This document shows positions 15,410-61,600 of a stretch of DNA of 64,000 nucleotides, piece by piece. Under the pieces are notes generated by a model. The model ran no database searches and was not told where the DNA came from. It worked only from the letters and a program-made list of their open reading frames with translations. Within the stretch, counting starts at the first letter, position 1; each line of letters starts with the position of its first letter. The position numbers and the translations under genes were made by a program. Where the stretch lies: contig CAIIXF020000006.1 of assembly GCA_903813345.2 (NCBI GenBank), positions 2,294,001 to 2,358,000 on the forward strand, given 5' to 3'. Source of the stretch: Owenia fusiformis. Lineage: Eukaryota; Annelida; Polychaeta; Sabellida; Oweniidae.

Positions 15410-15729
15410 TAGTGTTGTCGCGATTAATCGATACATCGCGATATACATCGCCAAAGCTGATTCTGGCGATGCATCGATGTCTGAAACAAAACAACGATGT
15501 TTTTAAAAAAATTTAATTTGCTAAAAATCACCCTTTCTTGTCTTATTTTGACGTAAATCGCTCACCTTTCTCATGTCTTATTTCATTTTCCAATGTTTTC
15601 TGATATTATTTCGCTTTTAAACTGTTTTAGCTAGTCGAAATGAATTAGTACCGTGGGTACTGGGCTCACATGGTCACATTTTTTGCTGATTTTTTGTTAT
15701 AAAATTATTTCAAGCCATCTGTCTCTCAG

Positions 15730-18385
15730 TCAATTAAAATGGCTGAAAAAAAAATGGATATAATTTTTTGCCAATAATTTGTAACAAAATTATTTCATAC
15801 AACTACTCTTTACAGTGACATGGCTTTTTGCAATGCAAAACACCTGAAATTATTTGTAAAGCTAGGAAAAATGGGCCAAAATTGAATTTCGCGAGACAAA
15901 AATGGCGACCATTTTGAAATCAGGCAAGCTTTTGAACCAGGAGTCATAGGGGAGTTTTTTGTATTGATGTTGAACAAAAATAACTTGAAACTGGAATCCT
16001 ATCAACAGAGGTTTTAAGCAAATGGTCCAAAAGAGGATTTCGCGAGACAGATGGACAAATCAATGTTAACTAAAATGGCTGAAAATAAAAAAAACGGATA
16101 TAATATTTTGCCGATTTTTTGTAACAAAATTATTTCATACAACTACCTTTTACAGTGACATGGCTTTTTACAATGCAGGACAGCTGAAATTATTTGTAAA
16201 GCTAGGAAATGGTCCAAAAGTGTATTTTGCGAGACAGATGGACAAATCAATGTTAACTAAAATGGCTGAAAATAAATAAATGGATATAATTTTTTGCTGA
16301 TTTTTCGTAACAAAATTATTTCATACATCTACTCTTTACATTGACATGGATTTTTACAATGTAGGACACTTGAAATTATTTGTAAAGCTAGGAAATGGGT
16401 CAAAAGTGAATTTCGCGAGACAAAAATGGCGGCCATTTTGAAAATAGGCGAGCTTTTGAATCAGGAGTCATAGGGGAGTTTTCTGAATTGATGTTGAACA
16501 GAAATAACTTAAAACAGGAATCCTATCGACAGAGGTTTTAAAACGTGCCACAGAAAGTGGATTTCGCGAGTCAGATAGACAAATCAATGTTAACTAAAAT
16601 GGCTGAAAATAAAAAAATGGATACAATTTTTCGCTGATCTTTTGTAACAAAATTATTTCATATATCTACCCTTTACATTGACATGGATTTTTACAATGTA
16701 GGACACCTGAAATTATTTGTAAAGCTAGGAAATGGGTCAAAAGTGAATTTCGCGAGACAAAAGTGACAGCCATTTTGAAAATAGCCGAGCTTTTGAACCA
16801 AGAGTCATAGGAGAGTTTTTTGTATTGATGTTGAACAAAAATAACTTAAAATGGGAATCCTATCGACAGAGGGTTTAAGGTAAATGGTCCAAAAGTGAAT
16901 TTTGCGAGACAGTTGGACAAATCAATGTTAACTAAAATGGCTGAAAATAAATAAATGGATATGATTTTTCGCTGATTTTTCGTAACATAATTATTTCATA
17001 CATCAACTCTTTACTTTGCAATGGATTTCTACAATGTAGGACACTTGAAATTATTTGTAAAGCTAGGAAATGGGTCAAAAGTGAATTTCGCGAGACAAAA
17101 ATGGCGGCCATTTTGAAAATAGGCGAGATTTTGAACCAGGAGTCATAGGGGAGTTTTCTGAATTCATGTTGAACAGAAATAACTTAAAACAGGAATCCTA
17201 TCGACAGAGGTTTTAAAACGTGCCACTGTTATTGACAGAAAGTGGATTTCGCGCGTCAGATATTTATTTATTTATTTTTTATTTATTTTATTTGACATTC
17301 GCCTTAGAAACGGCGGCACACTAAAATAGGTGCGTCACATTTTAAAACAATAATACATACTAAAAACATTTATACAAGAACTTTATACACTTCTCGGTTT
17401 AAAAATCTTAATTAGAAATCTCTTGACTAAATTGTCAAAGACAATTCCATTAGCTTGCCCCCAGTCCTCAAAGATTACATCACCTAACATGCAAATAAGT
17501 TTTCTCCTTAAATTTGAGGATAAAAACATGGAGCTTAATTCTCTTGGACATTTGGACTCAATATCGAAATAAAATCCTGATCTCTCCTTAGTAAAGGCGG
17601 GGCATTCTAGGAGTCTATGTGTGATATCATCTTTACATTTACAATTACCCAACTTACAAATCCCATCACTTTTATTCCATCTTTCGTAATTAGATTCTAA
17701 ACAAAAATTATTTGTCCTGGCCAGGAACTTCAGCTTGGCTCCATAAAAATCATTGTCATTTTTAAAATAGTTTTCAATCTTAGGGTGAATCTTCAGTGTC
17801 TTATAAAAGTCAAGCGAAGGATGTTCTGTCATGCTATCAAAAAAACGTTCTGTATTTTGTATTTTACTTATTGACTGATATGCATCATACCAGTTACTGT
17901 CTTACTGTCAGATAGACAAATCAATGTTAACTAAAATGGCTGAAAATAAAAAATGGATACAATTTTTCGCTGATTTTTTGTAACAAAATTATTTCATATA
18001 TCTAATCTTTACATTGACATGGATTTTTACAATGTAGGACACCTGAAATTATTTGTAAAGCTAGGAAATGAGCCAAAAGTGAATTTCGCGAGACAAAAGT
18101 GACAGCCATTTTGAAAATAGGCGAGCTTTTGAAACAGGAGTCATAGGGGGGTTTTCTGTATTGATGTTGAACAGAAATAACTTAAAACAGGAATCCTATC
18201 GACAGAGGTTAGCTAGGAAATGGGCTAAAAGTGAATTTTGCGAGACAAAAATGGCGGCCATTTTGAAAATAGGCGAGCTTTTGAACCAGGAGTCATAGGG
18301 GGGTTTTCTGTATTGATGTTGAACAGAAATAACTTAAAACAGGAATCCTATCGACAGAGGTTTTAAAACGTGCCACTATTGTTGA
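15730..18385. repeat. Tandem array of about 345-bp units inside hAT element
   Basis: Blocks containing TTTCGCGAGACAAAAATGGC, AACAAAATTATTTCA, GGTCAAAAGTGAATTTCGCG and CAGGAATCCTATCGACAGAGG recur with alternating spacings of roughly 155 and 190 bp, so the higher-order unit is about 345 bp. The array ends in a GACAGACAGACGGACAAG microsatellite and an AGCTCACCATGTGAGCTA palindrome. The same family recurs at 25145-26163 without the hAT ends. Confidence 0.85.
17262..17906 (-). mobile_element. 5'-truncated LINE insertion (reverse transcriptase C-terminus)
   Basis: A minus-strand LINE 3' end is inserted in the hAT internal array, flanked by GTCAGAT at 17255-17261 and 17907-17913, a perfect 7-bp target duplication. 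The 3' end (left) is an (AAAT)n-type tail. The open frame runs from the truncated 5' end to a stop at 17383. It encodes the C-terminal zinc-knuckle-like block CKLGNCKCKDDITHRLLECP seen after the RT domain of many non-LTR retrotransposons. RT catalytic motifs are absent because of 5' truncation. The clade is not assigned. Confidence 0.85.
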
Positions 18386-18704
18386 CGGACAGACAGACAG
18401 ACGGACAGACAGACAGACGGACAAGTGAGTGATTGCAAAAGCTCACCATGTGAGCTAATGAACCATTAATCTAAAAAAATTACTTTACTTTCATTTCACC
18501 GTTACTAGAGGTTCCCGGATGTACCAGCGTACTCTTATTAATTTGTTCTGTTCGGTATTTTAGTGCATTGGCGTTCGGTATTTCAGTGCACTTTTCTCGG
18601 ACTTTTTCTCGATGAACATCGCGATGTGCATCGATGTTTACTACTGAAAATTGCTGATGCATCGATGTATGATTATGGCACATCGCGACAACACTACTTA
18701 TTAG

Positions 18705-23600: not shown

Positions 23601-26600
23601 GCCATGGAATGCGAAAATGTACAAAGGAATCCACTACCATTTTCAAATGTTGACTCATTAATACCACAAATACAGTTACCCATTGAACCCACAAAGCGTG
23701 CAATTTTCTATGGGTCTAACTTAACACTGTATGTGCTCATTATTTCTATGGTAACTAGGTATTTATTAATCATTACTAATAATTATTTCATGTTAAATGA
23801 TCAAAAATATTATCACAAATTAAAGTTGCAGTTTTTGGCTATACTCATGAAACAATTAATGTAATGATTACAGGATAAAAGATAAAAAATATTACATCCC
23901 CACTCTTACTTGTATACTCATTTTGGTGGTATACCTAATATGTAACTGATAAGTGAGACATCTTGTTAATTAGGGAGCATGTCAACTCTATAAAGTATCC
24001 AAAACAAGGCATGCACATGACAAAATGACTCCACCTATCAAAAGTGAAACTTGTAAGGGACGCTAATATGAAAAAATGTACTTGTGCAATATCGTGTTTG
24101 TCAAAGCAAAATATAAATTAGAACAATTTTGGCCAAATGTTTATCTAGATAATATACATGGTCCCTATTTACAAGACTGAAAGCAATTAGTATATTGGGG
24201 ATGCAACTGATACATGAGAACCTATACTCGTACCTTTCGTGATTTTTTGTGCATGCTGGCGGGGGCACTCCGTGGCTGCCATGGTAATAACACATACAAT
24301 AATTATATGTGAGGAACACACAGTGACACAATAGATACAATGTGTGATAGTTGTTATGGTTATACAATATGAAGTGTTCAGCTTAGAAGATCGAGTTTTC
24401 ACTATGTAAACTTTCAAACAAAATAAAAAAATAATTTATAAATTGATTCATGGTTAGGATTACATGAACAGGAAAAATAAGGGAACACAACATAGTTTTT
24501 GAAAATAAAAGTTGTTCAAAACAAAAAATCAGTAGAATTTATACATATGTGTTTTACATGTCTTTCAGTTTAATATAGGGAAAACTCTGACCAAACTTTT
24601 CAACAAAATCCTTTGTGTTAAAGCACACGTAATTAAAGAAAAATGGGTTGAGGGAACATAATTTCAGATAACTAAATTATGGAGGATTTTAATTTTAAAA
24701 TGCATATTCTAAAAACATATGTCTCAGAGTGACGATACCAGGATTGGACAAATTTTTATATGATGTATCAAGAACACGTTAAAATTATCAATTATTTTTG
24801 CTATAAATGTAAAAGGATAAAAATGAAGTGAACTCAGAGATTGAGCCAACATAATAAGTAATAAATATATTGTGACATGGTTCATGTAATTGTATAAATA
24901 GTGTAAATAACACATGCTATACTTTCTCAAGCACATTCTACACAATGTCATGCATGCATTCAAGCACATGCTATTGTGTAAAAGATAAAGGGTCTGTACT
25001 ACCCTGTGAGGGAAATTCAACTACTGAAATACTATTATTTAACTCAACCAAGACTGAACCTTTAAAAGGTCTATTTTATACAAATCACAGAAAATCCTCA
25101 TCTACATGCTGTATGTTCTACTCTCTGCTACTTTAAATTAATGTCCTATCAAAGAGCCAAGTGTTGACAGACAGAGATTTTAAAACTTGCCACTATTTTG
25201 GACTGACTGAGAGACAGATGGACAAATCAATGTTAACTATTCAATGGCCGAAAATAACAAGAATGGTGACCATTTTGAAAATAGGCGAGCTTTTGGACCA
25301 AGAGTCATAGGAGAGTTTTTTGTATTGATGTTGAACAAAATTAACTTAAAACAGGAATCCTATCGACAGGGGGTTTAAGGCAAATGGTCCAAAAGTGGAT
25401 TTTGCGAGACAGATGGACAAATCAATGTTAACTAAAATGGCTAAAAATAAAAAAATGGATATAATTTTTTGCTGATTTTTCGTAACAAAATTATTTCATA
25501 CATCTACTCTTTACATTGACATGGATTTTTAAAATGTAGGACACTTGAAATTATTTTTAAAGCTAGGAAATAGGTCAAAAGTGAATTTCGCGAGACAAAA
25601 ATGGCGGCCATTTTGAAAATAGGCGAGCTTTTGAACCAGGAGTCATAGGGGAGTTTTCTGTATTGATATTGAACAGAAATAACTTAAAACATGAATCCTA
25701 TTAACAGAGGTTTTAAAACGTGCCACTGTTATTGACGGAAAGTGGATTTCGCGAGTCAGATAGACAAATCAATGTTAACTAAAATGGCTGAAAATAAAAA
25801 AAATGGATATAATTTTTCGCTGATTTTTTGTAACAATATTATTACATATATCTACCCTTTACATTGACATGGATTTTTACAGTGTAGGACACCTGAAATT
25901 ATTTGTAAAGCTAGGAAATGGGTCAAAAGTGAATTTCGCGAGACAAAAGTGACGGCCATTTTGAAAATAGGCGAGCTTTTGAACCAGGAGTCATAGGGGA
26001 GTTTTCTGTATTGATGTTGAACAGAAATAACTTAAAACAGGAATCCTATCGACAGAGGTTTAAAAACGTGCCACTATTGTTGACGGACAGACATCCGGAC
26101 GGACAGACAGACAGACAGACGGACAAGTGAGCGATTGCAAAAGCTCACCATGTGAGCTAAAAAGAATAAACAAAAACATTTTGACAACATTAGTTACTTA
26201 CAATAAAAAAGCATCAAAAGCAACATTTGACAAACAAAAGAACAAATATATAAATCTTATATAAGTAAGAATAATAAAAAACTTTTCAACAGTATATCAC
26301 AATACATAATGACACAAAAAGAATATTTACAAGTTTGCAATGCCAATTTCCCCTACTGACATATGTTCTGACATTAGCAAATGATGTTCATACAACAATT
26401 CACTGAAGCAGTTTGAGACACCATTAAACGCTATTGATGTACATACAACATTTTACTGAAGCAGTTTGAGACACCATTATATGCTATTGATGTACAGTAC
26501 ATACAACATTTACTGAAGCAGTTTAAGACACCAACCATTAAAGAGACATACCGCTGAGAAACATCTATGGATTTCACAACCACATTTAACCTTATGACGC

Positions 26601-44600: not shown

Positions 44601-47600
44601 TATTTGAGTTCAAATAATAGACCGTCTGAACGGTAAAGATTTGGAAGGAATAGAAAAGAGAAATTCAATTTAATTGGTATCTTTGAATAGGATTTCTGTA
44701 GTCTATCTAGATTCGAACATAGGTCACTTGGATGGCAGAGGTTTGATTAAGAGATAGAAAGAGAGAAATTACAATTAGTTTATGATTAGAATAGGTTGAT
44801 TACTCGGGGAATTTGATTGGCGATTGAATGATTAACCTGATTTCTCTTGTTTGTACTTTATATCGGAAAGTTAGGGCTGATTGATTGTCATCGATTTCTT
44901 ATTCATTTTCTGTTGACTGTTTAGTTCGAACATTTGAGGTTCGGAAGAAATAGTAGAAAATATAAGGAAGCTTTGAACGTAAATATCGGACCATTAAATA
45001 GTTATTTATATCTGCTTTGGATGAATATTTCCATTGTCTATTTAGTTCAGTCAGAGATCACTTGGTGTGGTAGAGGATTGAGAGAGAAATAGGAGTGAAA
45101 TAATCATCCCGCTGTCAAAATCCATAATTGTTTACAATTTACGTGTAGCCGCTAGAGTGAAAAAGCAAGTAATTACTTTGAAAGAGTTCAAGAAAGAGAG
45201 TTAATTGTCTAATTAGCCGATAACTTTTGAGTGTTGCGGTTTATTTGTAATTGAGCTATCACTTTAAAGGGATAATCGTATCAGCAGTTTACAACCCGAG
45301 AACATTATATCAAAATAAGTCATACCTGCCAACCTAAGACCAAAATTTTGCGGTAGATTTTTTTTAAATTGCTGTATTTTTGCGGTAGATTTTTTCAAAA
45401 TACGGTAGTTTTTGCGGTATTTTTCAACAAAATTGCGGTAGTTTTTGCGGTAGATTTTAGAAAAAACGGTAGTTTTTGCGGTAGATTTTAAAAAAAACGG
45501 TAGTTTTTGCGATAGATTTAAAAATACGGTAGTTTTTGCGGTAGATTTTAAAAAAATACTGAAGTTTCAGAGGTTTGCGGTAGAATTTTGAAAAAAGCGG
45601 TAGTTTTGCGGAAGATTTAGAAAAAATGCGGTAGTTTTACGGTAGATTTAAAAAATGCGGTAGTTTTTACGGTAGTTTTTTGAAAAACCGGTAGTTTTGC
45701 GAAAGATTCTGATAAAAATGCGGTAGTTTTACGGTAGAGTTTGAAAAAATGCGGTAGTTTTTACGGAAGCTTTTTGAAAAACTGGTAGTTTTGAGGAAAA
45801 TTTTGAAAAATGCGGTAGTTTTACGGTAGATTTTGAAAATTGCGGTCGTTTTTTACGGTATTTTTTTGAAAAACCGGTACTTTTGCGGAAGATTTCGAAA
45901 AAATACGGTAGTTTTACGGTAGATTTTGAAAATTGCAGTAGTTTTTACGGTAATTTTTTGAAAAACTGGTACTTTTGCGGAAGATTTGCCAAAATGCGGT
46001 ATTTTTCGGTAGATTTTGAAAAATGCGGTAGTTAAACCTTTATACAATGCGGTTTTCTATATTAATACAATGTTTACGTGGTCATATTGTTGTTGTTATT
46101 GTGATTACATATTTTACTGCAAGAGTGCTTTTTGATAATAACAGTTTGTAAAGCAGAACTACCACCTGAGAATTATACGAAACTATTATTTTCAAGAAAT
46201 AATAGATATACTATTTCCAAGAATAAATAGAGACTAAACACTTTTTATTCTTCATTTACCATGCCTACAATGGACTGACAGCAACTTTGGATTTTAATGT
46301 TTCAGCAACTCTTTTACAATAAATCTAGATTGATTCAAAATACGAACACAATATTCATATCTCCACTTTTATTCACCTTCTAACCATTTTTTTTAGATAT
46401 CAGGATGTTTGGAAATACCATGAATGAAACATTTACTGAAATACAAAATATGGATTTTACACATTTTTACTCACCATCTTAGATGATCTATCACTTTTAC
46501 GAATTGAAATGACAGACATAATGTTCATATAACATTGGAATCTTATGGTATTAAATATTGATTTGTTCACTCGCAAGTCTCTAATGATACCAATGTGTTT
46601 GTCTGGCACAAATAGAAAATAAGTACAGGTCAATTGTCTTTCAAAAATAATCTGTTATGAGCATTTGCTGAAACCTTTCCCCTGAGACATCGTTCAGATT
46701 CGGATATCACAATACTTTTATAATAAACCAGAACTCAATGCTTTATTTTTTAATTATGTATTTGTTACTGATAATGTGTTCTGATGAAAAATACAACATT
46801 TTATCGTTCTGTAAACAAATTGATTAAACTATGTATAATGTATATGTGGCGTTCATTATTGATCATAACAAATCAAACTACGCATATTTCATACGCTAAA
46901 TATGCATACGCATTTCCACTCATTTATTTAGATGAAGCGCAACTAAAATCATATTTTTGTTGCATTCGGAATAAAGATCTGTGTACAAAAGGGTTTGGTT
47001 AACTACAAAAATCATGGCAGAAAGAATTCTTTCTAGCAAGTGGTAGTTGGTGTTTGGACTGATTACACGAAAGCTTACTTAGATAAATGCGCAATAACCT
47101 GATAACCTCAGACCTGACGATACCTATTTATATGGCTTATGGGCCATGTAAACCAGCATAGAATATGCAAATTAGATAGATACATACATGTATAAATACA
47201 TATATCTATGTATTCATGCATATATATATATTATATGCCAGCACAGAATATGCAAATTAGATAGATACATACATTATTATATGTATTCATATATATGTAT
47301 GATATATATACAAGCATGGAATATGTTAATTTAGTTGGCATAGAATATGTTAATTAAATAACAATAATTCATGAATATCTTACATTGAGATATCTATGAA
47401 TATGCTTTATTTATGAGATATATGTGTATTCTATACATGTTATATATGTATGTATTTGTATATATCTTCTAAGCTGGTCCCCAGTCCCCAGTTACCAGTT
47501 TGAGATATCTATATGCTATATATAATATGTATGTATTTGTATGTATCTTTTAAGAAGGTCCCCAGTCCCCAGTTCCCAGTTTGAGATATTTATATGCTAT

Positions 47601-50600
47601 ATATAATATGTATGTATTTGTATGTATCTTTTAAGAAGGTCCCCAGTCCCCAGTTCCCAGTTTGAGATATCTATGTTTGTGTATATATGTATTTGTATGT
47701 ATCTTATAAGTTGGTCCCCAGTCCCCAGTTCCCATTTTGAGATATCTATGTTATATGTATGTATGTATCTTCTAAGCTGGTCCCCAGTCCCCAGTTCCCA
47801 GTTTGAGATATCTATATGTAGGTATTTGTATTAAACATTGACAGAATATGAAATGAATATAACATCGTAACAAAAAAGTACAATTGTAAATCTAATAATA
47901 GATTATTTATTCAAAACCGATCATCACATAACCAATTTATCCTATGAAAAGTGAGGTTTTACAAGAGAAGTTTTCAGGACACCCTGCATATCTAGTTTTT
48001 TTAAGCGTTCTCATTCTCATTATTTTCAAAAAATCCATCATCATTTTGGTTAAGAAAAATTCTACGGTCTGCTGAATCTATTTTTACAGAGAGAACAGGA
48101 AAATCCGCCCACGGCCAAGAAAACAAAACTGGACATGAATATTCTAAAATATTTCCACGATTGAACAATGTGAACCAGATGACCAAGATTGTTATGGGAT
48201 AAACATATTATCCTTTAGTCGGTTCAGGATATTGGGATTATCCTTGGCCAATATAATATTTTTTCCCTCTGGACCTAGCTGCGGGCCTCGGACAGATATA
48301 TTATATTTACCTCGGGAGAATCCCAATATCCTGAACCTCATATAGGATAATCTCTATATATGTCACGCTCCTCCAAGATATCAATTCTTTATCCTATACT
48401 TGGACATGTTACGGGTAAACAAAACTGAACATGAATATTCTAAAATATTTCCACGATTGAACAATGTGAACCAGATGACCAAGATTTGTATGGGATAAAC
48501 AATATTATCCTATAGTCGGTTCAGGATATTGGGATTATCCTTGGCCAATATAATATTTTTTCCCTCTGGACCTAGCTGCGGGCCTCGGACAGATATATTA
48601 TATTTACCTCGGGAGAATCCCAATATCCTGAACCTCATATAGGATAATCTCTATATATGTCACGCTCCTCCAAGATATCAATTCTTTATCCTATACTTGG
48701 ACATGTTACGGGTAAACAAAACTGAACATGAATATTCTAAAATATTTCCACGATTGAACAATGTGAACCAGATGACCAAGATTTGTATGGGATAAACAAT
48801 ATTATCCTATAGTCGGTTCAGGATATTGGGATTATCCTTGGCCAATATAATATATTTTCCCTCTGGACCTAGCTGCGGCCCTCGGACAGATATATTATAT
48901 TAAACTCGGGATAATCCCAATATCCTGAACCTCATATTGGATAATCTCTATATATGTCACGCTCCTCCAAGATATCAATTCTTTATCCCATACTTGGACG
49001 TGTTACGTGTACATAAAGCCGGTTTGTAAAAACTTATATTTTCATCAGCGGGCAGATATAGCTTTACGTCCCGCTCCGAGCGGTCAGATATAGTATATCT
49101 GCCCGCTACGTCATAATCGCTGTTCCCGTATTGGTTCTTTTTTGTAACGTTCGCATACTGTAAACTACAATGGAGAAAACACAGACAATCGCGATCTGTT
49201 TGATGTGTTAAAGAAGGGAAGGAGCACCGTATACCCCATTAATAATCAAAGATTTGAACAGTAAAAGAAACAAGAATACAAAACTGGACATTTTAAAATA
49301 ATTCTACGATTGGTTGCAAAGTTTCTGAACTTTGGCCAATTGAACAGTGTGATTGGTATGGGATAAACAAATCATCCTATAATCGGTTCAGGGTATTTGG
49401 ATTATCCCTTGGCCAATATAATATATCTGCCCGAGGGCCGTAATATCCTGAACCTCATATAGGATAATCTCTATATATCCCGAAGTTTTCAAGTATAATA
49501 TTTTCAAGATATGATCTGATATGACTTGCAGAAATAAATAGGAAGTAATCGTTTAGTTGATTGAATTATGGAAGTAGTGAAGTCAATGATTTAATGAATT
49601 AGAGCAAATGTTTTTAATTTGAACAGGCCATTCATCAAATGACAACTGAAGATTAACTTAAAATAGATTGTCTATCTATATATTTATATGCATGAGAGAC
49701 ATGTTATAATGTTAGTGAACTAATGATAATTTCACCTGTTCACATCCAGTTCCTATCATGATTGAAAACTGACTGGAGTAATTCTCTTCAAATTATTTAC
49801 TCATTATGAACAGAAATTTAATATTTCAATCGCTTAAAAGGCGTAAATAAATGCCAATTTGACTTCCAATAAAATCCGTCAATAATTTACTGATTACTTG
49901 CACATTTGAAGAGGTAAAACTTACAGCAATCAACCGTGGATTTACATGTAAACTCAATAGGATAGTTTCTAAATAGCAGAAAAAGCAATGAAATCTAGTG
50001 CTGCCATCTTTTATTCAGCTTTTTACTTGGGCTAGAGTTCCCTTTACTTACATGCTAAAATCTTGGAAAAGTGGCTTAATTTCATGATTTATCAAAGAGT
50101 GTTAGTTGAATCTGTATAAAACATATGACTTGAATGATATACCACATGATGACCCTGTTTATGAACATGTTGTGATTAAACGTGCAAATGTTGGTTGACA
50201 TACAAATAATCCAGGGTTTTAAAGCTTTTTAGCATTACATCTATGGAGATTTGGCCCAAGTTTTTTTAAATTGTCATAAAAAATTATTTAAATTACATAA
50301 CTGTGTAAATCAAAGCTATTCTAGGAGAAAACATTTCACTGAATTCAAATATGCCATTTAAAAGAAGGTAATGTAAGTCGTTAGAGGTTGAATATGCAAA
50401 TCTCTTAAAATCTCACGAAAAACGAGAATTAGCGAGATTTCAAAAGCTATACGGAAACTATACTATTGCATTTGTTTTTCGCGGGAAAAAGTTTCTCTCA
50501 TTGACGTCACAGATTTCTAAGCAGCTCATTATAATATTCATGAGCTGACTTTGTGGAAAGGTGAATAACATTGTAACAAAAGAGTACAATTGTAAATCTA

Positions 50601-53600
50601 ATATTTATGTATTTAACAATTGTCTTCAAATATCAAGGTAAAATAAACCGAAATGTTATCTGAGTAGTATTACTCCAGTATATTGCATGTTTAAGTTATC
50701 TAATATTTATGAGCATTTTAAAACCTATTTTTGGCATATAGCATCAATCAATTTGTACAGATTTTTATTCTTCTGTTTGGGTATGAGCTGCTAGTTCATA
50801 ATGAAGGTGTTATATTTTTTCTCTATCTGATCTAATACTGGCCACATGAGCACACCAGGTAGATATCAGTTACACAAACTTTAGAGCAACATTTAACATT
50901 AAACTTGTATATTTAAGTTCACTGAGTTACCCTGTATGTGGAAATAAAAGACATTAGCTCAACCAGCAGACCAGCAGACTATTAGCTAGAAGCTTCAAAC
51001 AAAATGCATTTTAAAGCTCTTATTTTTATTGGTCATCGCCCCTCCCTCCTGGCTACGCCTATGATAGGTATATACAAAAATGGTAAGCGGCAATGGTCAT
51101 AGTATGTCTAAAAAATTAATATAAGTGATTCCAATGCAGATATTTTATACTTCATATTTCATTATAGAAATTTTAACTTTACTCCAGACTTGACAGAACT
51201 TTAACTTTAAAGAACTCTTTAAAATTGTCTTTGAATAATACATTGAATCAGCCTGAAACCTACGACACATCTTTCCGAACCTGTTTCAGGCCCGTAGCCA
51301 GAATTTTCCAAGAGGAAAACAGTTAATCTTTCTAGAGGAAAACAGTTAATCTTTCTAGAGGAAAACAGTTAATCTTTCTAGAGGAAAACAGTTAATCCAG
51401 TCAAGACTACAGTAATGAGACAAACTCATAACTTACATAACTTAAATAATCTGTCTCCAGATTGGAAAAGAATTATACAGTTATATGAAGCACTATAAAG
51501 CTGATAAGCTGTTAGTTATCCAAACATATGTGTCCACTTAATGATTTTAAATAGAGAGTCAGTTTCAGAAGCTTTCAGTCTAATGTATTGCATGTATTAT
51601 GAATTCTCTACCTTTTCAATATATTGAAGCAAAATTAGAAAAAACGTATAACAAAACCCCCAAAAATAGATAAAAATCAAGATAAACCTTTTATTTCATC
51701 AACAAGATACTTTTTTAAAATCAACCAAAATTTCCTTTGTACAATTACAATATTGAGAGACTTAAACATGTTGTATGTTGTTTTGTTCAAAACAGCAGGC
51801 CCGTAGCCAGGGGGGGTTCGCCCCCCCCCCCTTGGCCAAAATTTCTTTCAAAATCATGCAGTTTTTCACCACTCTGACTAATTTTTGAGTGATTTTTGGC
51901 CATTTTTGCCAAAGTGAACCCCCCCAGAATATTTTAGAAAAACGAACCCCCCCTTGGAAAATTCTGGCTACGGGCCTGAAACAGGTTCGGAAAGATGTTT
52001 CATTTCATTCTGAGCATATGATACCAGAAGCAAAAGAAGTGTTTGATGTGTTTTCTAAAACAATATAGTGAAAAGTATATACATTTTTTCAAATGTTATT
52101 GTTACCATTCAAAAGATGACCATTAAATTGACGATATGTAATTTTTAGAAATTTTTGACGACTGATTTAAGAGAAAAGTGTGTTCAAAATGTTCACCATA
52201 TCAAAACCAATCCTTTACAGATTTTCCTAAATATCCAGGATGTCAACTCTTCAGTGGAAAGGTTAAACTTGTGACTAGGATAACAAAAAGGTCAATCTTT
52301 CTAATTTTCACATATTTTGTTATATATCAGATAGACATTGAAGTTCTGCCTAAATAAAATCTGGCTGTTCTTGGATTTTAAAGTGTTATGTAAAGATGAT
52401 AACTTAATGACTATTAGATGACTCTTCCACCTACACCAGTCCAGTCTTTACCATTTAAACATGCAATAAGAGAAGTTAATATACAGGGTGGTCCAAAAAA
52501 GTGAACCCCTGCAACAGGCTATATTGTCCTTAATACTTGCATGAATAGACTCATATTATCACATGTTGTAGAAAAAGGTCTAAAATTTTGTTGATGCCAT
52601 AGTCTATTCTCTGTCTTAAATTTTGAAGAAATCACATCTAAATGAGGTTTTATATAGGATTCATCCTCAGTGTATATTGCTATCAACTCATAAAAGAGAA
52701 TGGATCAAGATGAATCTTAAAGAATTAGAATTTACTTTTTACATACTTTAACATAGAGATCTCGAAATGGGAACTGGGAACTGGGGACTGGGGACCAGCT
52801 TAGAAGATACATACAAATACATATATACACAAACATAGATATCTCAAACTGGGAACTGGGGACTGGGGACCTTCTTAAAAGATACATACAGATACATACA
52901 TACATATATATATAGCATATAGATATCTCAAACTGGGAACTGGGGACTGGGGACCAGCTTAGAAGATACATACAAATACATACATATTATATATAACAAT
53001 ATAGATATCTCAAACTGGGAATTGGGGACTGGGGACCTTCTTAAAAGATACATACATATTATATATAGCAATATCTCAAACTGGGAACTGGGGACTGGGG
53101 ACCAGCTTAGAAGATACATACAAATACATACATACATATAGCATATAGATATCTCAAACTGGGAACTGGGGACTGGGGACCTTCTTAAAAGATACATACA
53201 AATACATACATATTATATATAACAGTATCTAGTCTATCTAATTAACATATTCCATGCTTGTATATATATCATACATATATATGAATACATATAATAATGT
53301 AAGTATCTATCTAATTTGCATATTCTGTGCTGGCATATAATATATATATGCATGAATACATAGATATATGTATTCATATGCATACATGTATCTATCTAAT
53401 TTGCATATTCTGTGCTGGTTTACATGGCCCATAAGCCATTTATATTCGGGTTGGTGAAGGATTACAGGGACAGTACAGGAAGACTTAAATTTTTCAGCAT
53501 TCTCAATAACAATAACGGGAAATTTTACGGTAGTTTGAACAAAAATACTGTTGATTTTAGCAGAAATACGGTAGATTTTCGAAAATTTACGGTAGATTTT

Positions 53601-55539
53601 CAAAAATTTACGGTAGATTTTACGGCCGTTCTCATGGAATAAACGAGTTTTTTAAAAAGAAAATTTACGGTAGATTACGAAAAAAATACGGTAGATTTTT
53701 TTACGGGCGTTTTTACGGGAAAAAATAGTATTTTTTTTACGGTAGTTTGTCATTTTTTTACGGAAAAACGAAAAATTTACGGTAGATTCCCGTAAAAATA
53801 CGGTAGGTTGGCAGGTATGTAAGTGCGTAGGCCCGACGTTAGTAGTGGGTATTTGTTTTCCTTAGTCAGGCTAGTTTACAGCTCATATTTGCCATTGTGA
53901 AATTTATGAGGCATGTCTCTTTGTACTTGTTGAGAGTTTTTATTATCACTTAGGGATTGTTTTATAAGAACTATAATATATGAGAATCAGGTTTCTAAAT
54001 TCGAGGTGAAAACAGTTATAGTTGTCATTTAAGGATCTGGAAACCATTTGTTTTGGATTCGGAAGTCTTAGGGTGTTCAAAAAGGAATTTATGAAACGTA
54101 ACCTGAGGGGTGGAGCAGGGAATTGTTGTTAGTAACATAAGGCTTAGATCCCTAGAGGTTAATTACCCTTATTGTTTGGAGTTTTGTTGGGAAAGATCCT
54201 TCCGCACTTTAGGTTTAGAATAAATCAAGTTTGCTGGTTGTGGGCATTATCAAGTCCTGTTAGGCTTTTAGCTTTATTTGAAGTGACAAGGCATTTAATA
54301 CTTTCTGGCATTTATAGAGGGCGTAAAAGACAATACAGTTAGAAAGCTTACTATTTTGAGTTTAAGTTGACCTCATGTACTATAGTGTATGTCCTACATC
54401 AGTAGTATAGAAAGTATCCATTTGAAACACGTGATAGACTATAGAATTCTTGTTTGTATTAAATTATAAATATTATAATAATCAATCTGAGCAGTTATTC
54501 ATAGATAACTGAAAGGCATTTGATTGCATGCACATCACATATTTATTCATATAAAGTTTAATCGAATAAAATTAATTATAGATATACATTACCATCTTAT
54601 AGTAAGTATCTTCAGGCTTGATAGGCCTAGTTGTTGTTTTAGCACATTATTGTTGTTGCACATTTATTTAATCTGTATAAATCTGGTGTGTAGCTTTACC
54701 CTGACTCTCTCATCTTGAGAAACTGATTTTCCGTACCCTTTACTTAATTTTAGTTATAATCTTTAGAATACGAGCTCTATTATCTATTTCCGGTCACGTT
54801 TATCAAATCTCGCATTTCCCGAGATCAGTATTCTATATTTAGCATTAATCAGAGCTAGTATTCTATATACTTATTGCAATTATAAAGGAAACTGTGACAT
54901 TTCGGTTCTCAATTATTGACTTAAATAAAAAACTTGTTCCAAAACAGTTAAGTGGAAATTGATTATAAGATGCCTGAAGCTATACTGTAAATGCATAGCG
55001 TAACTTGAGAATTGGAACAAGATAATATATGAATACTCTATAACATGACATATAATACTCTATAACATGACATATAATACTCTATAACATGACGCTGAAT
55101 GTGACTTACTATATTTGCACATTACACTGTCTCCCGACTCCAACTAGCATTCTATGAATATTAAACCGATATTTTATGATGTTATACATCGATTGAAGTA
55201 GTGTAAGTGTTCCAACGATTTCTTACATTTCTCCAAAAGCCCTTTAACATGGGCTGGGAATATCCATTTTTGCTTGAGAGATAGCTTTGTGCAAACTAAG
55301 TAAAATGTGACATTGCCTGAGCGAGTAGGTCTAATTACTTACCTTGGATTGTCATTGCCAATAAGCTTCACAAGGCCCCATAGAAAATCTTCAGACCCTG
55401 AATGACACAGAAAATGGCTGATAGTGCTATCCTTTTGCGCATGGAGATCGTCGACCAACATTTCCAAGGCTCCATGTGCCCGTTTATCTGTGTGCATGAG
55501 CATGGCGAAATAATCGCCTTTCACCCAGTTTAGCGGCAT
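20679..55539 (-). CDS. Armadillo-repeat and fibronectin type III protein, complete (18 exons, 1116 aa)
   Basis: The exons, 5' to 3', are 55343-55539, 37735-37921, 37223-37353, 36836-37031, 36345-36541, 35763-35841, 30078-30183, 29556-29789, 29201-29317, 28810-28874, 28389-28455, 27854-28050, 27449-27517 (left edge 27448), 26993-27171, 22960-23026, 21765-22614, 21256-21485 and 20679-20860. Every junction keeps frame and GT/AG. Residues 1-340 form armadillo/HEAT-like helices (VAGNSAYIIGTIAESE, NMWTASNAALVLARL, GMNAAFAIGRMCDMEEG, KNACFALSCLATNKDG). Residues about 330-360 are a helical then Pro-rich linker (KPPPPSAE). Three FN3 domains follow at about 362-442, 443-520 and 527-612 (LAPYTTFNFRLRAST, LHPNTTYEVHVCAST, LTPDTEYVVTVAAIT). 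Residues 615-1116 are Lys/Ser/His-rich and probably disordered. There is no signal peptide or membrane segment, so it is likely cytoplasmic. I do not recognise a named family; a scaffold role is only a guess. Confidence 0.88.
25145..26163. repeat. Second copy of the hAT-internal repeat family
   Basis: About 1 kb of the same sequence family as the array at 15730-18385, including AGGCGAGCTTTTGAACCAGG, GAATTTCGCGAGACAAAA and the end AGCTCACCATGTGAGCTA after a GACAGACAGACGGACAAG microsatellite. It lacks the TAGTGTTGTCGCG ends, so the array family moves or amplifies independently of the hAT ends, or the hAT element captured it. Confidence 0.85.
26383..26543. repeat. Minisatellite, 3 copies of about 60 bp
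   Basis: The words CATACAACA, TTTACTGAAGCAGTTT, GAGACACCATTA and GCTATTGATGTACA recur three times in order, the last copy partly diverged. Intronic. Confidence 0.8.
30480..32330. repeat. Tandem 275-340 bp units with polyC runs
   Basis: The word AGAAAGCACCAAATAGCATC followed by TAAAATTGTAAAATTTTCTAG recurs at about 30490, 30825, 31148, 31420 and 32270. Between copies lie GACATCATCAAATAGC, CTTGCTCCCCCTCTGGCACC and runs of C up to about 9. The stretch 31680-32250 interrupts the series with unrelated sequence. Confidence 0.8.
32181..32215. repeat. Perfect 14-bp stem hairpin
   Basis: CAATAGACTGAATT (32181-32194) and its inverse AATTCAGTCTATTG (32202-32215) flank a 7-base loop. It lies in the stretch that interrupts the polyC-rich units and may mark an edge of a small nested insertion. 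Confidence 0.7.
32448..35470 (-). mobile_element. 5'-truncated L1/Tx1-like LINE with target duplication
   Basis: The insertion is flanked by GCGGCAAAAA at 32438-32447 and 35471-35480, a perfect 10-bp target duplication. It has an A-rich 3' tail at the left (minus strand). The 5' end is truncated inside the coding region, so the endonuclease and first ORF are gone. It interrupts the polyC-rich element and is therefore younger than it. Confidence 0.9.
32506..35470 (-). CDS. LINE reverse transcriptase, 5'-truncated, frame open
   Basis: The frame is open from the truncation point at 35470 to a stop at 32506, about 988 codons; the first in-frame Met is at 35322. Numbered from that Met, the reverse transcriptase domain runs about 150-450. 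It has KSPGNDGITPEFYKTFW, LLFKKGERELFENYRPISL, CIDFKKAFDSLNW, LQKGIRQGCPASALIFNLC and the catalytic IIQHADDTTLIM at about 385-396 (HADD in place of the usual YADD). KSPG-DG-PEFYK-FW points to the L1/Tx1 group. The C-terminus has the zinc-knuckle-like CVHCNKNHTMEHMLYEC. The apurinic endonuclease domain is absent. No internal stop suggests recent insertion. Confidence 0.92.
37605..37725. repeat. Pogo-type repeat end
   Basis: The segment carries GTGTTCACATCTAGAGGTGT and GAGAGGTGTTCAGG words and ends in ATACAGGTTTTACTGTA, the inverse of the CAGTAAAACCTG terminus at 13418. The left partner end is not clear. It lies just 3' of ARM-FN3 exon 2. Confidence 0.5.
38489..38770 (-). mobile_element. tRNA-derived SINE
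   Basis: Read on the minus strand, the head carries an RNA polymerase III A box TGGCTCAGTGG (38753-38763) and B box GGTTCGATTCC (38710-38720) at tRNA-like spacing. A tRNA-unrelated body follows, then a tail ending ATACCAATGAGGTATTGCTC. The tail matches a second fragment at 41187-41226, which supports the left boundary. A functional tRNA is unlikely because the acceptor stem does not close. Confidence 0.8.
39236..39753. mobile_element. Mariner-type MITE, 518 bp
   Basis: The left end CAGGGTGAGCCAAGAAAAGG and the inverse of the right end CAGGATGAGCAAAAAAGG are imperfect inverted repeats, each continuing GTAACC, and flanked by TA. ACAGGGTG-type ends with TA targets are typical of Tc1/mariner relatives. 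No transposase remains. Confidence 0.75.
39940..42140 (+). CDS. Fibrinogen-related protein (C-terminal fibrinogen domain), nested gene
   Basis: Two exons are firm: 40296-40460 and 41485-42140. A candidate first exon, 39940-40009 (MQITNGSPWKLVLVSNMIFG), fits the phase exactly and gives a weak signal peptide, making 296 residues. Residues about 40-78 (ELKQEMVDIKETMNELKKEI) look like a coiled coil for oligomerisation. The fibrinogen domain runs from 85 (DCSENTSFTGVRTI) through MARRFDGSVDF, EYFIGLDNLH and YNGTAGDSL. It includes a likely Ca site D221/D223/D225 and the disulfide pair Cys232-Cys245 (GAWWYKHC). Such proteins are secreted lectins in invertebrate immunity or matrix. An extra Cys (CSGGC) is unusual. 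The first exon is uncertain. An AATAAA overlaps the stop. Confidence 0.88.
40591..41072. mobile_element. CAGGCCTGTCAAC-ended MITE, 482 bp, in FREP intron
   Basis: CAGGCCTGTCAACTTGGG at the left and the inverse CAGGCCTGTCAACTGTCC at the right form terminal inverted repeats of about 14 bp. Flanks are AACATATA and CATATATA, possibly a degenerate 8-bp duplication. The interior repeats GAACACCTTGGTCCAAAT-like words on the left and GCGTGACA words on the right, with a run of G at about 40797. hAT-like by terminus; no transposase. Confidence 0.65.
41187..41226 (-). repeat. Fragment of the SINE 3' tail
   Basis: GGTTACC and GGCGAGTGATACCTCATTGG match the left end of the SINE at 38492-38526 with few changes. 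The tRNA head is absent, so this is a truncated copy or an independent use of the same tail. Confidence 0.6.
44269..44295 (+). other. Possible orphan first coding exon
   Basis: An ATG in the context TTTAAGATG opens nine codons (MSSTPMRMF) followed at once by a perfect donor GTAAGT at 44296. The 170 bp upstream is locally richer in CG dinucleotides than the surroundings (GGCCCGGCACCC, ACGCGTG). This looks like the start of a plus-strand transcript, but I find no convincing downstream exon, and transposon sequence begins about 1 kb later. It could be a transposon-derived or noncoding transcript. Confidence 0.25.
44405..45085. repeat. Degenerate tandem array, about 6 units of 75-120 bp
   Basis: The words GATTTCTATAGTCTATTAAG, TTCGAACA and GGTTTGGAAAGAATAGAAAAG recur in order at about 44415, 44490, 44588, 44692, 44905 and 45025, increasingly diverged to the right. 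No coding content. Confidence 0.75.
45340..46045. repeat. GCGGTAG-rich arm array, left arm of foldback
   Basis: GCGGTAGATTTT and GCGGTAGTTTT words alternate about 30 times with 20-50 bp spacing and short A/T runs. The right arm (53500-53819) has the same word inverted in fewer copies, mostly TACGGTAGATTTT. Confidence 0.85.
47465..47820. repeat. CCCCAGTCCCCAG array, left copy
   Basis: Five units each contain GGTCCCCAGTCCCCAGTT, CCCAGTTTGAGATATCTAT and a TATGTATGTATTTGTAT spacer, 65-90 bp per unit. About six inverted copies form the right partner at 52745-53215. Confidence 0.9.
47853..47895 (+). repeat. Direct repeat, partner at 50562-50602
   Basis: AACATCGTAACAAAAAAGTA then CAATTGTAAATCTAATA recurs at 50562-50602 with about three changes, in the same orientation, 2.7 kb apart inside the foldback element. 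The span between them holds the palindromic 297-bp array, so this pair may record an internal duplication or insertion. Confidence 0.6.
48121..49011. repeat. 297-bp tandem array, 3 copies, each with an internal palindrome
   Basis: Copies start at 48121, 48417 and 48714 with AAACAAAACTG and are nearly identical; a diverged fourth lies at about 49265-49490. Each contains GGTTCAGGATATTGGGATTA and, about 75 bp later, its inverse (23-bp arms, one mismatch), so each copy could extrude a hairpin. A related CAGATATAGTATATCTG palindrome lies at about 49085. Confidence 0.9.
51268..51997. mobile_element. Foldback with perfect 45-bp inverted arms
   Basis: The left arm 51268-51312 is an exact inverse of 51953-51997 and includes CAGGCCCGTAGCCAG, a common hAT-like terminus. 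A 23-bp word GAGGAAAACAGTTAATCTTTCTA is tandemly repeated four times next to the left arm (51313-51395). A partial inner copy of the terminus with a G run lies at about 51798. Confidence 0.75.
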
Positions 55540-56855: not shown

Positions 56856-57887
56856 TGTATGGGCATAAATTCTTTATTTTGTTTTCTTAAATATATAATT
56901 ACTTGAAGATCCTCTTTTAGTAGGTGATGTTCCTCTCTTAATTATACTTAAATGACAGACACAGTTCTTAACTTATCTCAATTTTGTATTTGTATGACAA
57001 ATATTTGATATATACATGGTATCATAATCTTTTTATCCAAAGAACTGGCATTTTGATAATATGTAGGTAATTGACTGTTAGGCTCTCTATTGAAACTTGA
57101 TTTGGACAAAAGTTGACTTACCCAGATGATTGGGATAATTTCATCTTCTTTTATAATGACACTTTTAGGATCTATCTTAACAAAGTATACTTATGAATAT
57201 AAGGTTATTTAAAATTCAATATTTCAATAAATATATTAGGCAGCTACTAAATACTGCTCAATAAAAAAATAAATAATGAAAAAAAGTAATTTACAGAAAA
57301 CAAACAAAAAATTCAAGTGCCCAAATATGTACGGGAGTTTCTCGCAAATAGGCCCATGGGGTTTATTTGAAAGAGGAGTGTATGAAAGTTTTTTCCTTCT
57401 TCATGAAGGCCCATGTTCATTTCGAGTACTTCTAAATTAATGTCAAGTGGGTGAAAACATTCGAGAAAAGGATTGAAATTGCTTAAAAACAAAACAGGCT
57501 GGAAAAAAACAGAAGTGGCAAACAGAGCAGAAAATTGGGGCAAAAATATGACAAAGGGTCATATGTTGGTCAACGTTCATGATATTATTGCATGAGTATG
57601 AAGGCCATGTGTCAACTTTACTATCTACAACCCTCGAAATAAATGCCCAATGGTTTGCAAAAGCTATTTTTACGTCTTAATGACTGCAATCCCCTTGGAA
57701 AAATTATTTTTAACTCTTAATAAATGTTCATGGCTGATTATTTTGAGTTCTTTCAAATAAATGCCCTGTATAAAATTGCAAAATAAAAAAATAGAAAAAT
57801 TTCATTTTGAGAGAGCACAAAAAAAATATTTATAGATTGTAACAAAAAAGTCATTCTTTTGTCACTGTCTCAATTATATTACACAAT
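56856..57887. other. Spacer downstream of LNX
   Basis: AT-rich, no exon recognised. Around 57610-57780 a pair of related words (AAATAAATGCCC, TTTTAACTCTTAAT / TTTTACGTCTTAAT) suggests an old repeat. Confidence 0.4.
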
Positions 57888-57893
57888 TTATTT
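57888..57893 (-). promoter_or_regulatory. Candidate LNX polyadenylation signal
   Basis: AATAAA on the minus strand lies about 695 bp beyond the LNX stop, after the minisatellite. If used, the whole exon-derived array lies in the LNX 3' UTR. Confidence 0.4.
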
Positions 57894-57944
57894 AACAATT
57901 TACATTCTGTGTTGATAATTTTAATGTTCATAAAATATGTGACT

Positions 57945-58650
57945 GGAGATTTAGTGTTAAGACTGGTGCTCCTGACCTTGATCCAATGTCACTCACTAGA
58001 CCTTAAGTGTTTCTTGTTTAGACTTGCAGTGCCCATGGCCATGATACCACATCTAATGTCACTAGTATATAGCTTTAGGGGTTTTGATTTGGACCAGTAC
58101 CAAGGTCATGATACCACATAAAATGTCACTGGACTTTTAAGGGTTTTTATTTAGACCATTGACCTTGGCCATAATACCACATCCTATGTCACTAAAACCT
58201 TTAGTGTTCTTGATTTAGACGTGCCCCTGGCCATGATAGGACATCCAATTTCACTAGACCTTTAGTGTTCTTGATTTAGACGTGCCCCTGGCCATGATAG
58301 GACATCCAATTTCACTAGACCTTTAGTGTTCTTGATTTAGATGTGCCCCTGGCCATGATATCACATCCAATTTCACTGGAACTTTAGTGTTCTTGATTCA
58401 GACTATGCCCGGGGCCATGATACCACATCCAATGTTATTAGACCTTTAGTGTTCTTGATTTAGACTAGTGCCCCTGGCCATAATACCACATCCAATGTCA
58501 TTAGACCTTTAGTGTTCTTGATTTAAACTCGTGCCCCTGGCCAGATGAAACCACATCCAATGTCACTAGGCCATTAGTGTTCTTGATTTAGACTAGTGCC
58601 CCTGGCCATGATACCACATCCAATGTAACTAGACCTTTAGTGTTCTTGAG
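57945..58650 (-). repeat. About 11-copy array derived from the LNX terminal codons
   Basis: Units of 60-66 bp contain CTTTAGTGTTCTTGATTTAG, GTGCCCCTGGCCATGATACC and ACATCCAATGTCAC (plus strand). Read on the minus strand each unit corresponds to the last LNX codons (KNTKGLVTLDVVSWPGALV, then stop). The rightmost unit (about 58586-58650) is the coding one; copies become more diverged leftward. Confidence 0.9.
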
Positions 58651-61600
58651 CAATTGCACGACATATGCATGGGTCATATTTGTAATGTCATCACCATTAA
58701 CACTAAGTACAATATCACCACACCTGGAAAACAAACAGAAAATATTACACAGACTTGATCATTTTGGGTTATAGTAACATCTCAAGGGGAAATAACCTCC
58801 TGTCCAACCATGGCCCTATTTTCCTGTAAAGATGAACCTCTATTTTAAGTCAAAGACACATATCATCAACACTGATAGGTGTGAAAAAATTACTCATCTC
58901 ATCACTATAAGAACCTAAATACATGATGCGAGTTTTCAGATAAAACGTATATGCCCTTATAAGGGGGCCTGAATGTGGTACGTCAGCAACAAATAGGCAG
59001 GAAATGATGAGATGTGAGATTTTATATGTTGATCAGAATTGTTTATTTAAAGAGTGTAGATAGGGTGACAATCTTATAAAGGGTACATACTTTAGTCTTC
59101 CATCTCTGAATGCTGGTGTACCAGGGACAAGGGACTTGACGTGTATACCCTGTTTTCCTGGTGTGCTGTCTATTCCTCCCACTATGGAGAAACCAAGACT
59201 CTGCGAGTAACCCTTCTGAATTGTTATGGTTTTTACAATTTGGCACTTTCTGGAAGCATAACGGTGTTTTGAATTAGATAATGGTTTGATTTCACATAGA
59301 ACATTGAATGAAAATAATACTTATGGCATATTTTGTCATTTTCTTTCTAGTATGTCATTATGTCAACAGATATCTGTGTGGTTCTTTAGAATTCAATTCT
59401 CTACCAAACTTGAAAACAATTTAGAAATCAAATAAAACAAATACACAAATACTCCCATTTCAAAACTAAATTTTGAATCAATTGGGCAGATATAGTAATT
59501 TTTCAAAAATATTTTAGATATTAACCTTAATTCAATGAACTTACTTTGGAAGATTCAACCAGTACAACCATGAAGGGGAGAAGTTTGTAATGCCATCACT
59601 TGACTCCACACTGCTGATTGTTCGAAGTGTCACACTTTTAGCATCTGCACTTGCCTTGAGAGCTTTCACCGCCTCTTTGTGTGTAAGGCTCTTCAGGCTG
59701 GTGCCATTGATGGCCAAAAGAACGTCACCTTTCTGAAAATTACACAAATATTAACTGTCACATTCTCTATGGTGATAATAAGATTATCTATACAAAATGT
59801 GTATGATTATGTAATAACCAGCTTCTGATCTGGGATACACAGTGACAGTCGTGGAACCTGTGCAAGGTTATCGATTCTTGATGAGCTTTGATAAATTCTT
59901 TATTGAGTCTAAGATGCCAAATTCCACTTCAAAGAAAAATAATTTGTTGTTGATTGAATCATTATATGGGCTTTTAAGAAAAAGAAATTAGTCTCTTGAA
60001 AGTCCATGATTGAATGTTTTCTTCAATATATGAACATGCCATTCATTTTAGTGGGTTGAATGTATGATTTATTTTACAATCTCTTACTTTGATTTGCTTG
60101 CTGCGTCCTAGGCACCCATTAGCTTGTATGTTAGTTACATAGAGAGGAATATCACCACGTAAGCTCTCCAATCCACCTGCGACACTAATTCCTAAAGATT
60201 CTTTTGAGTCCTTGAAAAAGAATAAGCCTTCAGTTTTGACACTTCAAACATGACATACAGGGGAAGACATTCACTTCTCAAAATCTAAGACATATTCCTA
60301 AAAAAGTCATCATTTCCTCCCATTTTTGTGTAGTTAATTAGCTTATTTTCCAAAAGCATTTTAGACCTGGAGCTTGTTAATCCATTAGTTATAACAACAG
60401 ACCCCATGAGATAAAAAAAATTGTAGCTAACTTGATAATACAGGCAAGGAGCTTTAAAGTACCTTGGCTACAGTGAAGTGCTTTTCTTCACATTGCTTAC
60501 AAAGAGCACCATCATCTGCTAAAGAACCAGAAATCTGCTCATGTGACGTTGAACGTATTAAATCGGGAGTTTGTGGTCGACTACGTCTTGAAACAACAAA
60601 TTGCACTTTGTCCACACTGGCCTGGAAATGAGAACTTTTATTAGTTTCTTTAATTGAGGATCATTTGCAAAAAACAGTTAACTTGAGGACATTTAGCTTG
60701 AGTAATGTCAAGCAAGGGGAATTTTGCCTTAATAGAATCAAGCAAGGGGCATTCTTCCTGAATTGAGTTAAACAAGGGGCATTTTCTATACACTGTTCAC
60801 TAAGGTAGGGATGATTTCTGTGTGATATTAAATATCTTCCTGTTCAGTCAACAGGTTACATGGATATGCACTGAAATAAAACTGGTATCCCTTGTAGGCA
60901 TAGGATATCTAGTTTAAAAGTGTTTACATCGAGAAGTGTTTGGATTTTAAAGATGTGTTTGGACATAAAGGTGTTTGGATTAAAGATGTGCTTGGACATA
61001 ACGTTTTCATTGTTTTTGTATCTACCTGTATTATATTAGCTGCTTGTTCTTGGGTGCCAAATGTCAAATCTTGGCAGTTGATCTCCAGTATTCTATCATC
61101 ACGCTTCAAGCGGTTGTCTTGAGCAGCTAGTGATTCTGGGATCTAAAAGTATGGCAGAATATTTATGGAACTGTTTGCAGTTTATAAATATAACAGTTGA
61201 TATAAACTTTTGCATAATTGTTTTCTTCGTTATGGATAGATACATTTATTTATTTCGTAATGACTGACGCAAAATGATTGAAATTGAGTGGGTTACTTTC
61301 AAATTAAGAAAAATAAGAAAAATAACATTTTCAGTTATTATGTAAATAGAAACAACATACCACATCCATTATGTAAAGTCCTGGAGAATGCCTGGAAATA
61401 AAATAAGAAATTTAATATTCAATGCCATTCTTATAGACAATTTCATTTTTGACGAGTGATGGGCAGTGGGCACTATAATGCTCGATATTATAAGCAAAAC
61501 GATCTATATATCTTGTCCTCATTAGAACTTTGGGCTAAAGCTAGGGTAAGTGAAATATTTCAAATTTTGAAAACAATGATGGAATTGTGTTTTATCTCAC

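Follow-up and report, generated by a model that had tools for sequence, protein, structure and literature searches.

A tandem array behind the stop codon of an LNX1/2-like gene of Owenia fusiformis, probably a 3' UTR minisatellite that arose from the gene's terminal codons

The VNTR in the 3' untranslated region (3' UTR) of human SLC6A3 is an example of a 3' UTR minisatellite, and to our knowledge it is rare that the sequence from which a minisatellite grew can be identified. The array analysed here follows the stop codon of an LNX1/2-like gene on the minus strand of a window of Owenia fusiformis DNA, the window being the whole stretch of 64,000 nucleotides that was analysed. Like 3' UTR minisatellites and VNTRs, it had a unit of tens of base pairs, repeated in tandem about ten times downstream of a stop codon, with local duplications. 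Unlike 3' UTR VNTRs, it began with a unit that is a coding C-terminus, the unit included a copy of the stop codon, and the seed could be identified by protein homology. The zinc-finger coding minisatellite of Prdm9 (PMC3890296) is similar in that its unit comes from coding sequence and that homogenisation of units is possible; it differs in that the downstream units of the present array lie after a stop, are mostly off frame and showed no codon constraint. Mammalian LNX1 and LNX2, as presented in the parts of PMC5679597 and PMC7373230 used here, likewise carry a short tail with a hydrophobic final residue behind their last PDZ domain. Among the open-access titles and abstract openings listed, none described a 3' UTR minisatellite whose seed was coding sequence running across a stop.

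As shown in Table 1, the last coding exon of the LNX1/2-like gene was preceded by the acceptor TTTTCCAG, followed by G, as found by sequence inspection. Its translation was CGDIVLSVNGDDITNMTHAYVVQLLKNTKGLVTLDVVSWPGALV, followed by TAA at 58590-58588, and the exon therefore ended in LKNTKGLVTLDVVSWPGALV and the stop, just as an earlier note on this DNA had stated. Together with the preceding exon it made up a PDZ domain, with a Pfam PF00595 match (E 4.2e-21) over residues 7-88 of 96, and the short tail LDVVSWPGALV came directly after this domain and before the stop. The carboxyl terminus of LNX1 is given as TIVSWPGTFL in a table of proteins purified with GFP-LNX1 from HEK293 cells (PMC5679597), and the mammalian ends are given as -GTFL for LNX1 and -GSLV for LNX2 in the part of PMC7373230 that was cited. 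The tail in the window thus had VSWPG in common with LNX1, at an equal distance from the stop, and resembled the -GSLV of LNX2, as far as these excerpts go. At the end of the tail (58588-58602, minus strand), the third-last residue was Ala, where these sources give Thr for mammalian LNX1 and Ser for LNX2. The -GALV end therefore lay outside the class I PDZ-ligand motif (S/T third-last) reported for mammalian LNX1 and LNX2. As far as we have seen, a class I ligand end is not required of invertebrate LNX members.

When the last PDZ domain was compared with solved structures, the best single-domain chain among the best 60 of 310 matches was 'Multiple PDZ domain protein' 2fne (65.1 bits); in the same 60 matches, LNX chain 3b76 scored lower (51.8 bits), and multi-PDZ chains outscored 2fne. 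The PDZ domains of LNX1/2 are described, in the passage cited from PMC3162930, as related to the last four PDZ domains of MUPP1. The MUPP1 similarity of the last PDZ domain agreed with this published relation, and taken alone it cannot tell an LNX gene from MUPP1. The strongest sign for the LNX assignment is the SWPG tail, which here makes the distinction. Four gene pieces were scanned with Pfam PF00595, of which two passed, one scored 22.2 against a cut-off of 23.2 bits and one had no match. The gene ran off the window, and the RING end of an LNX-like gene would fall past the window edge at 64000.

Table 1. Gene end, array units and poly(A)-signal match (window coordinates; unit lengths from the alignment)
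Feature	Coordinates	Strand	Description
Preceding exon region	59090..59245	-	First half of last PDZ domain; translation and Pfam
Last coding exon, LNX1/2-like gene	58588..58723	-	Second half of last PDZ domain, tail SWPGALV and TAA; acceptor, translation, Pfam PF00595; splice sites predicted from sequence
U1, exonic seed unit	58589..58651	-	63 bp; 3/63 positions differ from U2-U11 consensus
U2, first copy past stop	58524..58588	-	65 bp; frame lost after VVS
U3	58461..58523	-	63 bp; the one copy past the stop that is as long as U1; WPGALV and stop still encoded
U4	58399..58460	-	62 bp
U5	58338..58398	-	61 bp; length form common to U6 and U7
U6 and U7	58216..58337	-	61 bp each; 100% identity; most recent visible duplication
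U8	58152..58215	-	64 bp
U9 and U10	58017..58151	-	62 and 73 bp; group together; U9 starts AATAAA at 58151
U11 and terminal fragment	57937..58016	-	U11 60 bp (58016-57957); 15 differences from consensus over 58 aligned positions
AATAAA poly(A)-signal match	57887..57892	-	Just past array, 696 nt after stop; one of several matches, in AT-rich sequence

Tandem Repeats Finder (TRF) reported a tandem array at 57993-58649 with a period of 63, 10.4 copies and a score of 763. Alignment resolved eleven units including the exonic one (58651-57957, minus strand), followed by a fragment reaching to about 57937. Ten copies and a fragment of the terminal stretch of about 63 bp, stop codon included, thus continue past the LNX stop, in agreement with the roughly ten copies described before. 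The best single-lag self-identity was 0.416 (lags 55-75), while the maximum in 1000 first-order Markov simulations was 0.331. In the stretch that holds the terminal fragment, just beyond U11 (57860-57956), the top score against the consensus was one that 2 of 1000 shuffles attained. Copies stood head to tail with units of 60-73 bp, within the range of about 10-100 bp that is typical of a minisatellite, and growth by internal duplication of units could be seen as well. The array behaves as a minisatellite; less usual is that its first unit is a conserved protein end and that the unit carries the stop.

The earlier note had proposed that the LNX terminus seeded the array and not the reverse, and had named copies dispersed elsewhere as what would speak for capture. 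In the reverse case, a pre-existing satellite or dispersed repeat would have supplied the LNX terminus. The differences between U1 and the consensus of U2-U11 were two at the upstream coding junction and one synonymous change (GTT vs GTG); such near-identity would be expected under capture too, so that the argument about direction is carried by protein homology. Other repeat families were also common in the 64-kb window. However, the exonic segment completes a PDZ domain, and its tail is shared with mammalian LNX1 at the same distance from the stop in the sources excerpted above, which indicates that the LNX protein came before the repeat and that the coding state is ancestral. The rest of the 64-kb window held no copy above shuffled controls: the top consensus matches, at 29 and 30, fell among the scores that 30 shuffled controls gave (26-35), and no BLAST match outside the array was better than E 0.36. 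On the protein homology and the search of the 64-kb window, capture is considered extremely improbable, and the LNX terminus is taken as the seed. Relatives of the LNX end were also sought in viral contigs, where 29 stretches fitted the peptide pattern and none was confirmed, and a 23-base exact unit core gave 0 matches in prokaryote genome contigs; animal DNA is not expected in either, and these results carry little weight.

Tandem repeats were abundant, and TRF covered 8056 of the 64000 bases of the window; where repeats are so plentiful, it is no great surprise that one should be seeded at the end of a gene. Two inverted copies (47126-47831 and 52750-53445) with 76-91% identity in pieces of 150-701 bp are turned towards each other across about 5 kb, in which a 297-bp unit occurs three times (48121-49011), and they may be the two termini of a large mobile element. 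Three related repeat blocks (15729-17262, 17907-18458 and 25170-26160) were built of long tandem units of 152, 186, 337 and 348 bp, and two of the three end in a GACGGACAGACAGACA microsatellite (18384-18423 and 26082-26125). These blocks look like one dispersed element family. The tandem arrays at 45346-46033 and 53567-53621 had units that both contain CGGTAGATTTT, as judged by eye from the TRF table.

Copies had been described as more decayed with distance from the stop. This trend was present over U1-U11 as a whole (Spearman 0.79, p 0.004), but it was not significant within U1-U8 (0.49, p 0.22). The most diverged units were U9 (15/62 differences) and U11, and they carried much of the trend. 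In the unit tree, U5-U7 grouped together with a support of 0.74 and U9-U10 with a support of 0.89, and the tree was otherwise star-like and poorly resolved. The identity of U6 and U7, together with these groupings, indicates growth through several local duplications. That the array might homogenise its exonic unit was considered and rejected: U1 had 1 synonymous change, while about 2.4 were expected (hand arithmetic from 20 third positions at the array rate of 23/195), which is indistinguishable from plain constraint or drift.

The downstream copies decayed without codon constraint. Their differences from the consensus (U2-U11) were spread evenly over exon codon positions 1, 2 and 3 (23/198, 21/204 and 23/195; chi-square p 0.87), and nothing therefore indicated that selection preserves them as coding sequence. 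The copies with a coding-type core had been said to be in phase; only one of the ten downstream units was 63 bp long, and only two (63 and 60 bp) had lengths that are multiples of three, so that the array does not keep phase. It had further been suggested that stop-codon readthrough could vary the LNX C-terminus. The conceptual translation beyond the first TAA in the LNX frame did begin with IKNTNGLVTLDVVS, as described, and the frame was open for 28 residues in total, continuing as SGQGHEFKSRTLKV up to TAA TAA. However, because U2 is 65 bp long, the frame of the unit is kept only as far as VVS, no second SWPG tail follows and the double stop comes next, and the copies had no visible codon constraint. 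We also know of no strong readthrough context in which TAA is followed by A, which counts against this explanation. The idea that readthrough readily supplies variant C-termini was not supported and is judged highly improbable.

Matches to poly(A) signals are common in AT-rich DNA. If the AATAAA at 57892 is used, the array would lie inside the 3' UTR. Further matches in the 2500 nt scanned were AATAAA at 58151 (inside U9), ATTAAA at 57925 and three more AATAAA; the farthest AATAAA matches reach 2389 nt past the stop, which weighs against this placement being certain. The array might instead be kept for a regulatory role in the 3' UTR, through protein binding, alternative polyadenylation or RNA structure. 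The AATAAA at 58151 (minus strand) would fit such a role, as it begins U9 where eight downstream units (U2-U8 and U10) read AATCAA, one base away. The folding energy of the sense array was -204.0, compared with a mean of -188.6 (SD 14.0) in 50 Markov simulations. RNA structure was therefore rejected as the reason for the array, since predicted folding lay only about one SD from the simulations, and we regard a regulatory role in general as quite unlikely.

We are fairly confident that the array is a minisatellite of the 3' UTR, that the final ~20 codons and the stop of the LNX1/2-like gene were its seed and that it arose through slippage or unequal exchange, and a harmless repeat with a conserved protein tail as its seed is the most likely description of it. 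Early on, the terminal segment would have been duplicated in tandem, so that a second set of the codons and a copy of the TAA came to lie after the real stop. The array would later have expanded to about eleven units as they slipped or exchanged unequally with one another. Duplication of a segment that bears the stop would not alter the protein, since translation would already stop in the first copy, and growth would therefore be tolerated. Expansion by unequal exchange would likewise leave the coding copy intact, and gains of units beyond the stop should not affect the protein. We assume here that such gains are neutral. Downstream copies would then drift as non-coding DNA, whereas the exonic copy would stay under selection. 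Only a contraction or conversion joining the exon to a later unit would alter the protein. Given this asymmetry, such an array could grow, and it is contractions into the exon that would become visible.

Such contractions are the basis of a further explanation, in which the array is a reservoir of cassettes and the LNX tail is swapped when the exonic unit undergoes unequal exchange or gene conversion with a downstream one. Contractions into different units would then produce different C-termini and different PDZ-ligand tails. Homologous breakpoints would keep the codon phase at the join, although indels further along the unit can still shift the frame. In silico, the exon was joined to all ten downstream units in turn, with each of 75 alignment columns used as the point of joining. 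Joins to U2 would end in SGQGHEFKSRTLKV in 49/75, WPGARV in 14/75 and WPGALV in 11/75, and those to U3 in WPGALV in all 75. WPRA would be the end in 57/75 joins to U4, AHLNQEH in 64/75 to U5, and ARLNQEH in 64/75 to each of U6 and U7. For U8 and U10, WPRSMV (22/75) and WPWALQV (35/75) are predicted, respectively. However, many of the modelled joins would truncate the PDZ domain or leave the frame (for U8, 23/75 out of frame and 12/75 truncated), joins to U9 would mostly end at VVS and those to U11 mostly in other sequences. The exonic tail retains VSWPG, and an intact tail gives no sign of a past swap; nor was there a sign of selection on the downstream units. A store of alternative LNX C-termini, as modelled from a single sequence, thus appears unlikely. 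If it did exist, the PDZ-ligand tail could be replaced in one step with the join in frame, and the specificity of the LNX tail could be polymorphic in the species.

The seeded minisatellite is a sound and modestly interesting case, from which the readthrough and in-phase readings should be dropped. Protein homology points here both to the seed of the minisatellite and to the direction of its growth. The suggested rule is that a tandem duplication of the last codons and the stop would be invisible to the protein, and that arrays can in this way grow from coding DNA, with selection seeing only contractions into the exon. The locus would be suited to testing whether C-termini are swapped by unequal exchange.
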